Below are positions 24,555-37,145 of a DNA stretch of 64,000 nt, piece by piece. Position 1 is the first letter of the stretch, and the number at the start of each line of letters is the position of its first letter. Origin of the DNA: Mesorhizobium sp. YC-39 (GTDB lineage: Bacteria > Pseudomonadota > Alphaproteobacteria > Rhizobiales > Rhizobiaceae); assembly GCF_025753795.1 (NCBI RefSeq), contig NZ_JAOWPS010000002.1:814501-878500 (forward strand), in the 5' to 3' direction. The position numbers and the translations under genes are program-made. Under the pieces are notes generated by a model. The model had not been told where the DNA came from, did not search any database, and was given only the letters and a program-made list of their open reading frames with translations.

Positions 24555-24566
24555 GGACAGCACAGT

Positions 24567-24624
24567 TCCGTGGTGATTTGGCCGGTCGGCTTGCAGCCAC
24601 GTTAAACAACTCGCTAAAGGGCCG
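24567..24624 (+). ncRNA. SAM-II riboswitch
   Basis: The element matches the SAM-II (metA motif) layout. P1 CGTGG (24569-24573) pairs with CCACG (24597-24601), enclosing TGATTTGGCC and CTTGCAG; TTAAA follows, and CGCTAAAGGGCC closes the H-type pseudoknot by pairing back to the GGCC of the loop. SAM-II aptamers are known upstream of metX/metA in alphaproteobacteria. This one sits 126 bp before metX and, with the terminator at 24637, probably acts by attenuation: SAM favours termination. Confidence 0.85.
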
Positions 24625-24636
24625 TTTGCATCCTGT

Positions 24637-24668
24637 AACCGGCTTTGCGATGGCGTTGCCGGTTTTTT
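24637..24668 (+). terminator. intrinsic terminator downstream of the SAM-II aptamer
   Basis: AACCGGC (24637-24643) pairs with GCCGGTT (24658-24664), followed by TTTT (24665-24668). It is between the aptamer and metX, as expected for an expression platform. Confidence 0.75.
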
Positions 24669-24750: not shown

Positions 24751-25923
24751 GTGATGGCCATTCTGCGCGCTCAAAAAACCAACAACGAGGCCGACCAGCC
24801 GTCGAGCCCGGTGTTGCGTTTCGGCGCCGACAAGCCGCTCAAGCTCGACGCCGGCACGCTGCTGTCGCCGTTCCAGATCGCCTACCAGACCTACGGCACC
24901 CTCAACGACGCTCGCTCCAACGCCATCCTCGTCTGCCATGCCCTGACTGGCGATCAGCACGTCGCCAACACCAATCCGGTGACCGGCAAACCCGGCTGGT
25001 GGGAGGTGCTGATCGGCCCCGGCAGGATCATCGACACCAATCGCTTCTTCGTCATCTGCTCCAACGTCATCGGCGGCTGCCTCGGCTCCACCGGCCCCGC
25101 CTCGATCAATCCCGCCACCGGCAAGCCCTACGGGCTCGATCTGCCGGTCATCACCATCCGCGACATGGTGCGGGCACAACTCATGCTGATCGACCATTTC
25201 GGCATCGAAAAACTGTTCTCGGTGCTCGGCGGCTCGATGGGCGGCATGCAGGTGCTGCAATGGGCATCGAGCTATCCGGAACGTGTTTTCTCGGCGCTGC
25301 CGATCGCCACCGGCGCCCGCCATTCCTCACAGAACATCGCCTTCCACGAGGTGGGCAGGCAAGCTGTGATGGCCGACCCGGACTGGCATGGCGGCAAATA
25401 TTTCGAGCACGGCAAGCGGCCTGAAAAGGGGCTGGCGGTGGCGCGCATGGCCGCTCACATCACCTATCTGTCCGAGGCGGCCCTGCACCGGAAATTCGGC
25501 CGCAATCTGCAGGACCGCGACGCGCTGACCTTCGGTTTCGACGCCGACTTCCAGATCGAAAGCTACCTGCGCCATCAGGGCATGACCTTCGTCGACCGTT
25601 TCGACGCCAATTCCTATCTCTACATGACCCGCTCTATGGACTATTTCGACCTTGCCGCTGACCATGGCGGACGGCTGGCCGATGCCTTCGCCGGCACCAA
25701 GACCCGCTTCTGCCTGGTGTCCTTCACCAGCGACTGGCTGTTCCCGACCGAGGAGAGCCGCTCGGTCGTCCATGCGCTGAATGCGGCCGGTGCCTCGGTC
25801 TCCTTCGTCGAAATCGAGACCGACCGCGGCCACGACGCCTTCCTGCTCGACGAGCCAGAGCTGTTCGCCGCCATCAACGGCTTCATTGCCTCGGCCGCGC
25901 GCGCAAGAGGGCTCAGCGCATGA
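24751..25923 (+). CDS. metX: homoserine O-acetyltransferase
   Basis: A 390-aa alpha/beta-hydrolase-fold enzyme that acylates homoserine for methionine synthesis. The nucleophile is S162 in [12 protein letters not shown]; the Asp is in FTSDWLFPT and the His in DRGHDAFLL near the C-terminus. The conserved [14 protein letters not shown] lies at 103-116. It is preceded by the SAM-II riboswitch and followed by metW, a common pair. Its TGA lies inside the 57-bp repeat at 25914. Confidence 0.93.
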
Positions 25924-26027
25924 CCCCGAAAAGTTGCAGACTTTTCGGATCGGGATCATGCGCCAGGCATCAGCGCATGACCCCGGAAAGTTGCAGACTT
26001 GTCCGTCCGGGATCATGTGCCAAGCAG
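25914..26027. repeat. 57-bp tandem repeat between metX and metW
   Basis: Two copies (25914-25970 and 25971-26027) begin CAGCGCATGACCCC and differ at a handful of sites. Each contains an inverted repeat (GAAAAGT/ACTTTTC in copy 1) and a GATCATG motif shared with other rhizobial palindromes. The metX stop codon is in the first copy, and the 57-bp period keeps the upstream metW frame open. Confidence 0.85.
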
Positions 26028-36021: not shown

Positions 36022-36318
36022 ATGTCCCGCACCTGCGAACTCACTGCCAAGGCAGTCCAGACCGGCAATAATGTGAGCCACGCCAACAACAAGACCAAGC
36101 GCCGCTTCCTGCCGAACCTCGTCAATGTGACGCTGATCTCGGAGGCGCTGAACCAGAATGTGCGCCTGCGCATTTCGGCCAACGCGCTGCGTTCGGTCGA
36201 GCATCGCGGCGGCCTCGACGCATTCCTGGCCAAGGCCGACGCCAAGGAGCTGTCGCAGCGCGCCCGCCTGCTGAAGAAGCAGATCGCCAAGAAGCTGGCC
36301 GAACAGCCGGCAGCCTAA
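36022..36318 (+). CDS. rpmB: 50S ribosomal protein L28
   Basis: A 98-aa basic protein with the L28 start [28 protein letters not shown], extended at the C-terminus by [17 protein letters not shown] as in alphaproteobacteria. ATG at 36022 gives the expected start. No gene is visible in the 256-bp gap to the DUF3108 gene. Confidence 0.97.
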
Positions 36319-36352
36319 GCATTTCTTCGGGCGACCGCCTCTAAAACAACAA

Positions 36353-36415
36353 GGGACCGCTATCCGGCTTTCGGGTAGCGCTCCGCTGGTTCCATTACCC
36401 AGGATAAAAAAATGA
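36353..36415 (+). ncRNA. preQ1-I riboswitch candidate with competing upstream hairpin
   Basis: The 3' part (36386-36414) is CTGG, a 9-nt loop TTCCATTAC, then CCAG, GAT and an A-run joined to the ATG of the transporter gene. P1 is CTGG/CCAG; loop CATT (36393-36396) can pair with AATG (36411-36414), the start codon, forming an H-type pseudoknot. GGTTC, ACCC and the A-rich tail match the preQ1-I consensus. Upstream GGGAC (36353-36357) can pair with GTTCC (36389-36393) and CGCTATCC (36358-36365) with GGGTAGCG (36373-36380), which excludes P1 and P2 and would free the start codon. Confidence 0.68.
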
Positions 36416-37077
36416 CTTCCTTCTCGCGATACCTGCCCTTTGTGGCCGCCATGGCGCTTGTCGTCGTGGCGTCGAACATCCTCGTGCAGTTCCCGATGCA
36501 GGGTGCGATCGGCGACCTGTCGCTGGGCGACATTCTGACCTGGGGCGCCTTCACCTACCCCTTCTCCTTCCTGGTCACCGACCTTGCCAACCGCCGCTAT
36601 GGTCCGGCCGTGGCGCGCAGGATCGTCTTTGTCGGCTTCATGACGGCGGTGGTCTGTTCGATCCTTGTGCCGCCCTTCCTGTTCCGCCACGAGACGGCCG
36701 CCGACCGGCTGGTGCGCATCGCGGCGGCTTCGGGGGCAGCGTTCCTGACCGCGCAACTGCTCGACGTCACCGTGTTCAACCGGCTGCGCCGGCAGAGCTG
36801 GTGGCGCGCGCCGATCGTCGGCACGCTGGTCGGCTCGGTGTTCGACACGCTGGTGTTCTTCACCGTCGCCTTTTCGGCGGCCTTCGCTTTCGCCGGCCCG
36901 AGCGATGGCTTCGCGCTGGAGGCGGCGCCCCTGATGGGCGTGCTGCCGATCGAAACCATGCGCTGGGTATCGTGGGCGCTCGGCGATCTCAGCGTGAAAC
37001 TGATCATCGCCGTGGTCGCGCTGATCCCCTACCGGCTACTTGCCGCCCGCTGGAGCCAGCCGGCGCTGGCTGTCTAG
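36412..37077 (+). CDS. queuosine precursor transporter (YhhQ/VUT family)
   Basis: A 221-aa inner-membrane protein with six hydrophobic segments and the family core GAFTYPFSFLVTDLANRRYG. YhhQ proteins take up 7-cyano-/7-aminomethyl-7-deazaguanine for tRNA queuosine; in E. coli this is established. The preQ1-like leader in front of it fits this role. A weak ribosome site AGGA lies 7 nt before the ATG and overlaps the putative P1 of the leader. Confidence 0.85.
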   Translation: MTSFSRYLPFVAAMALVVVASNILVQFPMQGAIGDLSLGDILTWGAFTYPFSFLVTDLANRRYGPAVARRIVFVGFMTAVVCSILVPPFLFRHETAADRLVRIAAASGAAFLTAQLLDVTVFNRLRRQSWWRAPIVGTLVGSVFDTLVFFTVAFSAAFAFAGPSDGFALEAAPLMGVLPIETMRWVSWALGDLSVKLIIAVVALIPYRLLAARWSQPALAV

Positions 37078-37145
37078 AGCATGATCCCGAAAAGTGGCAC
37101 CCGGTTTTTCGGACAAGATCATGCTCAAGGGTAGAGCATGATCCC
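37077..37145. repeat. palindromic repeat spanning the stop and next start
   Basis: GAGCATGATC (37077-37086) and GATCATGCTC (37117-37126) form a palindrome. TAGAGCATGATCCC also recurs at 37075-37088 and 37132-37145. The first copy carries the TAG stop of the transporter gene and the second the ATG of the downstream gene. Confidence 0.8.

Follow-up and report, generated by a model that had tools for sequence, protein, structure and literature searches.

A probable preQ1 class-I-like riboswitch in Mesorhizobium and its relatives, in which the pseudoknot strand ahead of yhhQ appears to be the start codon

The window analyzed here is a stretch of 64,000 nucleotides from the genome of Mesorhizobium sp. 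YC-39, in which rpmB is followed on the same strand by a gene of the YhhQ type (Table 1). The first-pass annotation had read this downstream gene as a queuosine-precursor transporter, and the match of its product to TIGR00697, well above the cut-off, bears this out. The same genome encodes Tgt, QueC, and QueF-II, each above its curated cut-off. In Sinorhizobium meliloti, nitrogen fixation is impaired in queF, queC, and tgt mutants and little or not at all in queA mutants, while the host-cell phenotype of the queC and queF mutants is restored by 300 nM preQ1 in the medium (PMC3568095), which implies that this bacterium takes up preQ1. The word yhhQ is absent from the accessible text of that study (PMC3568095). 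The E. coli YhhQ protein is said to favour preQ0 (PMC10622847). Directly 3' of yhhQ (37079-37097) lies a copy of a short repeat resembling GCATGATCCCGAAAAGTGG, with further copies at 25918-25936 and 25975-25993; three matches at up to three mismatches occur in the window, against 0.02 expected.

The leader of the transporter gene carries a 29-nt element, CTGG-TTCCATTAC-CCAG-GATAAAAAA-ATG, which occupies 36386-36414 and whose 3' end is the start codon. Checked against the window sequence, all the letters and coordinates quoted in the first-pass annotation are correct, among them CATT at 36393-36396, AATG at 36411-36414, and GGGAC at 36353-36357. Its placement of an AGGA ribosome site over the 3' side of P1 is likewise confirmed by the sequence: the AG of AGGA lies inside the 3' strand of P1, and a spacer of 7 nt, one T and six A, leads to the ATG, as in a good start site. 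The core element exceeds chance expectation. A generic grammar drawn up after the element had been seen (a 4-bp stem, a loop of the form T..C of 9-10 nt, an A-run, and three bases complementary to loop positions 4-6) has a single match in the window, at the element, and a single match in total in 100 first-order Markov copies of the window.

Table 1. Features of the yhhQ leader and its flanking genes in window coordinates.
Feature	Position	Strand	Remarks
rpmB, ribosomal protein L28	36022..36318	+	Upstream, same strand; TIGR00009
Upstream hairpin	36352..36387	+	Outside the conserved element; minimum-energy fold reaches C36386-U36387
P1, 5' strand CUGG	36386..36389	+	Partner 36399-36402
Aptamer loop UUCCAUUAC (= TTCCATTAC)	36390..36398	+	U36390 = E. 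coli U6; C36398 = E. coli C14
P2, 5' strand CAU (anti-start-codon)	36393..36395	+	Constant in every in-register placement
Loop L2, UAC	36396..36398	+	Ends with C36398, the putative specificity base (role: PMC10622847)
P1, 3' strand CCAG	36399..36402	+	CCGG in L326, with matching partner
AGGA, Shine-Dalgarno-like	36401..36404	+	Overlaps the 3' end of P1; read directly from the sequence
Loop L3, GAUAAAAAA	36403..36411	+	A-run kept, also in the six rows lacking AGG
A36411, last base of L3	36411	+	Counterpart of the ligand-reading adenine A27 of E. coli (role: PMC10622847)
Start codon AUG (predicted P2, 3' strand)	36412..36414	+	At the position of E. coli AGG
yhhQ-like gene, queuosine precursor transporter	36412..37077	+	TIGR00697, 106.5 bits (cut-off 50.95); Pfam Vut_1

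A covariance model built from the element block (R1) was used to follow the element through related genomes. In the window's genome, it scored 52.8 bits at the element and 17.3 bits at the next best place. Of 257 genomes of the family, 231 matched, each exactly once, and no element was found in the family outside yhhQ leaders. At the level of the order, 12 of 297 genomes matched, all of them from the family of Mesorhizobium (12 of its 13 sampled members, against 0/284 of the others). Among 385 genomes of the class, a value below 0.001 was reached only in the window's own genome; 18 others lay between 0.02 and 0.1, not above chance level.

Leaders were collected from 80 homologous loci, whose titles are nearly all Mesorhizobium, and from a further 135 of the order and family. 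The block CTGGTnnCATnnCCCAG...AAAAAAATG was recovered by pattern from 80/80 of the former and 114/135 of the latter; the 21 leaders without it comprise 19 from other families and two (L179 and L186) from that of Mesorhizobium. These 194 rows represent 55 distinct sequences and are not all independent, since some genomes appear in several sources. The extraction pattern itself fixes C(T/C)GGT, CAT, CCAG, the A-run, and ATG, so that a count of 194/194 for these letters arises by construction. Across 186 distinct pattern-extracted leaders, the information content climbs to 2.0 bits in the motif columns but nowhere exceeds 0.30 bits in columns -60 to -8: conservation takes the form of a sharp block, and the sequence upstream is unconserved.

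Because the pattern fixes most letters of the motif, the best ungapped placement of the 29-nt consensus was also determined with no letter forced in 206 family leaders (116 of the set of 135, the 80 homologous loci, and 10 added from YhhQ-bearing genomes, nine of them without an R1 match). Intact copies were present in 195 leaders (0-10 mismatches), one leader (L312) held a decayed copy, and 10 held none (12-17 mismatches), so that no leader falls between 10 and 12. In register, the G-G-U and C-A-U blocks and the final C of the loop show no change; most off-consensus letters come from L205 and L212, whose 10-nt loops sit one base out of register. With the start codon unforced, the A-run is followed by ATG in 195/195 intact copies, and no GUG or UUG start with a compensating loop change occurs among them. 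Outside the family, 38 leaders showed no copy, their best placements carrying 12-17 mismatches in 29 positions, as did L299 from a small-genome family member. An R1 match is lacking in 26 of the 257 family genomes. YhhQ was sought in 13 family genomes, 12 of them chosen for this absence, and 12 leaders were read (G385 was left out). Those of the 11 YhhQ-bearing, R1-negative genomes comprised one decayed copy and ten leaders with none, while G301 (leader L326) bears the element, with an R1 value of 6.8e-6. The decayed copy L312, in a family genome of 1.5 Mb (G403), lies before yhhQ with both P1 and the A-run broken and seems to be in the course of being lost.

The first-pass annotation had set the leader against the preQ1-I elements of Firmicutes. 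Known preQ1 switches do come mainly from Firmicutes or a few groups, with few proteobacterial cases (PMC3766115, PMC2258182), but the nearest relative proves to be type III of gammaproteobacterial yhhQ leaders. Riboswitches of preQ1 class I type III precede yhhQ and are described almost exclusively from gammaproteobacteria (PMC10622847, PMC11625349). In E. coli K-12, the yhhQ leader reads ATTGGG-UUCCCUCAC-CCCAAT ... AAAAAGG. Its crystal structure places the pairs U11-A28, C10-G29, and C9-G30 in P2; the ligand is read by U6, C14, and A27, the G5-C15 pair is invariant across subtypes, and loop positions 7 and 8 form base triples (PMC10622847). Changes to the G-C closing pair, U6, C14, or A27 cost 645- to 64,000-fold in affinity (PMC10622847).

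On this map, U36390 corresponds to U6, C36393, A36394, and U36395 to C9, C10, and U11, C36398 to C14, A36411 to A27, and A36412-U36413-G36414 to A28-G29-G30. The P2 pairs U-A, A-U, and C-G of the window thereby fall on U11-A28, C10-G29, and C9-G30, and the middle pair differs from the E. coli C-G on both sides, so that the bound AGG becomes the AUG start codon. All 195 intact leaders among the 206 retain the counterparts of those bases whose change costs at least 645-fold in E. coli. Both elements share the gene yhhQ, a 9-nt pyrimidine-rich loop (eight of nine letters equal in the UUCCAUCAC form), the G-C closing pair, the equivalents of U6 and C14, an A-run with the ligand-reading A, a 3-bp P2, and the L2 endings CAC, AAC, ACC, CACC, and CAAC, which are common to E. 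coli-type and rhizobial rows. They differ in the partner of P2, which is AGG of the Shine-Dalgarno sequence in E. coli and the AUG start codon in the rhizobial element, in the ribosome site, which in the latter has shifted into P1 or is missing, in its short L3 of nearly fixed length, and in its occurrence in the family of Mesorhizobium.

Within the family, the helices vary little. The 5' strand of P1 is CTGG in 193 of the 194 pattern-extracted rows; the exception, L030, has CCGG/CCAG with one pair broken, whereas L326, with CCGG/CCGG, changes on both sides and keeps the pairing. P1 varies in these two leaders only and P2 is invariant in the intact copies, and the case for covariation therefore rests mainly on comparison between groups. 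The common family loops are UUCCAUUAC and UUCCAUCAC, with G found in 50 of 194 rows at loop position 7 and in 36 at position 8; UU follows the 5' strand of P1 in 144/194 rows and AC precedes its 3' strand in 179/194, both being found in the window. The first-pass annotation had proposed a four-pair CATT/AATG helix, of which the three pairs CAU/AUG are conserved. The fourth, U36396-A36411, was dropped because its loop base is T in just 90 of 194 rows and otherwise C or A. The predicted P2 is accordingly one of three conserved pairs, C-A-U with A-U-G, and not of four.

Between groups, both helices change while remaining paired. Among the 38 examined E. coli-like rows, which we infer to be gammaproteobacterial, P2 is CCU/AGG in 35 (34 distinct places, L242 being the same as L272), and three (L239, L240, and L252) gave no match. 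Their P1 has the form NGGG/CCCN. Forcing 9-nt loops on these rows produced mismatches at the outermost P1 pair; with 10-nt loops allowed (28 rows of 9 and seven of 10), at least four P1 pairs form in 34/35. A second alphaproteobacterial preQ1-I-like element was encountered in the yhhQ leaders of another family of the class (f60, at a guess Rhodobacteraceae; L253-L265), with the layout CAAG-U(..CCG..)C-CUUG-..AAAACGG. A regular expression recovers its CAAG/CUUG stem together with CCG/CGG in 11 of 13 leaders, the other two also have CCG before CGG, all 13 having been read around an AAACGG anchor, and in L255 a P1 of AAAG/CUUU, seen by eye, adds a further two-sided change. P2 is thus CCU/AGG in the gammaproteobacterial-type rows, CAU/AUG in the family of Mesorhizobium, and CCG/CGG in f60, and P1 appears as CUGG/CCAG, UGGG/CCCA, CGGG/CCCG, AGGG/CCCU, and CAAG/CUUG, with pairing kept throughout. 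The covariation to be tested for in related leaders is found in P1 and P2 between the three groups and once in P1 inside the family, but not in P2 inside the family, where it is constant. These comparisons with E. coli and with the second alphaproteobacterial group also uphold the central proposal of the first-pass annotation, a preQ1-I-like pseudoknot in which the start codon forms one strand of P2.

The f60 leaders share with the rhizobial element a preQ1-I-like layout before yhhQ and differ from it in their CAAG/CUUG stem, a loop of 9-11 nt, and a CCG/CGG P2 with a Shine-Dalgarno-like ACGGA; the f60 element looks type II-like and has no Rfam match. With preQ1-I type II (T. tengcongensis, B. 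subtilis), the rhizobial element has in common an H-type pseudoknot, AC before the 3' strand of P1, and an A-rich L3 (PMC11625349, PMC10622847), whereas the type II loop is longer and contains purines. In the T. tengcongensis type II aptamer, the first Shine-Dalgarno bases are in P2 and the start codon is not.

As regards class membership, the structural features of preQ1 class I that were tested are present in the predicted fold. An H-type pseudoknot is indicated by both helices pairing while changing among the three groups. The invariant G-C pair closing P1 is unchanged in register in the unforced placement, as are the ligand-reading U and C, and the ligand-reading A precedes ATG in the 195 intact copies, identified for this count by an A-run that ends in ATG. 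Control of yhhQ is indicated by position, the adjacent gene being of TIGR00697 and the leaders having been chosen as yhhQ leaders. The Rfam preQ1 models gave no match at the region, RF00522 being absent up to E 10, and none in 20 further leaders, but this test has no power, as the type III leader of E. coli, a proven riboswitch, goes unmatched too. The region yielded three matches up to E 10, to unrelated families and far below gathering scores, and the E. coli leader and the 20 further leaders only sub-gathering matches to other families. Since the AAGG strand of type III is replaced by AAUG, which includes the start codon in 195/195 intact copies, the predicted element is not type III as defined. 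It appears instead to be a preQ1 class-I-like aptamer in which the start codon has taken over from the Shine-Dalgarno sequence as the pseudoknot strand, and it very likely works like a preQ1-I type III riboswitch.

We favour, with considerable though not full confidence, a riboswitch that acts on translation and has an aptamer of the preQ1 class-I-like kind, nearest to type III, for which preQ1 would be the ligand and repression the response to binding. When preQ1 is plentiful, the 4-bp P1 and the pseudoknot P2 would enclose a single ligand, bound by C36398, U36390, and A36411. C36393-A36394-U36395 would then pair with A36412-U36413-G36414, burying the start codon, with the AG of AGGA held in P1, and translation of the transporter would stop. 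When preQ1 is scarce, the pseudoknot would open, the transporter would be made, and the precursor would be imported. Burial of the start codon, more than that of the ribosome site, would be the main effect.

This last point is where the closest competing explanation enters. The element may be a true preQ1-I aptamer in which burial of AGGA in P1 does the work and pairing of the AUG is secondary, as the position of AG in the 3' strand of P1 and the retention of AGG in 188/194 rows would allow. We regard this as unlikely: the AUG and its loop complement are kept in intact copies without exception, unlike AGG, and P1 on its own has only 4 bp. The six rows without AGG (L163, L165, L177, L178, L180, and L183, from three genera) retain the stem, loop, A-run, and AUG, and in them P1 can be lengthened by a G-C pair of its flanking bases. 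As the A-run stays in these rows, it is not just the spacer of a ribosome site, and in those genomes the only putative expression platform to be seen in the element is the start codon.

Somewhat less probable still is that the same preQ1-I-like fold binds another 7-deazaguanine or guanine-like ligand such as preQ0 or queuine, especially in the branch with UGG/UGC loops. The reported preference of E. coli YhhQ for preQ0 (PMC10622847) points in this direction, as do loop positions 7-8 and 12, where many rows depart from E. coli. Against this reading, no in-register change affects the bases by which the guanine-like face and edge are read, and the window loop differs from UUCCCUCAC solely at the compensated P2 base and the variable L2 base. 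A block consisting of a strong ribosome-binding site and an A-rich translation enhancer, conserved in primary sequence and binding no ligand, is very improbable. AGGA, the 7-nt spacer, and ATG make a good start site, and inside the family P2 is constant and P1 nearly so, but CTGGT and CAT, 5' of the ribosome site, equal it in conservation, AGG is gone from 6/194 rows in which stem, loop, and A-run remain, and in E. coli the corresponding element has been proven to be a riboswitch (PMC10622847). An operator at CTGG-N9-CCAG for a DNA-binding regulator of the transporter, suggested by the inverted-repeat form of this short sequence ahead of a single gene, can practically be set aside, given a distance to the start codon that is fixed but for a few nucleotides, an asymmetric and conserved loop, loop and tail that change together between groups, and one copy per matching genome.

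The first-pass annotation had described an upstream arm, GGGAC pairing with GUUCC, as competing with P1 and P2. A 5-nt Watson-Crick complement of the GTTCC target within 60 nt upstream was present in 7 of 186 leaders, against 10.9 expected from shuffles, so that the arm has no conserved counterpart above chance; the longest upstream pairing including G-U averaged 4.99, against 5.37 in shuffles. With the competing arm failing in relatives, the idea of a complete two-state switch within some 60 nt, which had been built on it, is unsupported as well. In the minimum-energy fold, the upstream hairpin takes C36386-U36387 (z -1.71), as calculated by a program that omits pseudoknots and cannot weigh the hairpin against P2 plus ligand. 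Stable upstream hairpins are frequent (mean z -1.79, with 118/186 leaders below -1), and their sequence is unconserved. The hairpin abutting the riboswitch in many family leaders is perhaps the 3' end of rpmB. A role for it as a terminator was considered and rejected, no terminator-like or promoter-like site being present in 36250-36500.

In the accessible portions of the literature on preQ1 riboswitches and on queuosine in alphaproteobacteria and rhizobia, no description of a start-codon variant was found, and the set that defined type III in 2014 may include alphaproteobacterial sequences. A 2024 review counted riboswitches of mRNAs that lack a Shine-Dalgarno sequence among the challenges ahead and noted that bioinformatic searches are weakened by this lack (PMC11625349). 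The present element would be such a missed case, matched in 231/257 family genomes, with no Rfam match to it in the window and with six of 194 rows lacking AGG. If the reading is true, a riboswitch can act by a direct grip on the start codon, and nitrogen-fixing symbionts gain a testable candidate switch for the uptake of queuosine precursors. It is about evenly balanced whether the element goes further and constitutes a fourth preQ1-I subtype, in which the initiator codon would be the expression platform, the A of AUG would form part of the ceiling of the ligand pocket, ligand and start codon would share one structure, and no Shine-Dalgarno sequence would be needed, with a UGG-loop branch (Rhizobium-like, at a guess) that would have a rebuilt ceiling and maybe a shifted ligand preference.

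Elsewhere in the window, a SAM_alpha (SAM-II) riboswitch is matched on the forward strand at 24560-24637 with 79.7 bits, and the open reading frame downstream of it (24751-25923) reads like a putative homoserine acetyltransferase, MetX.
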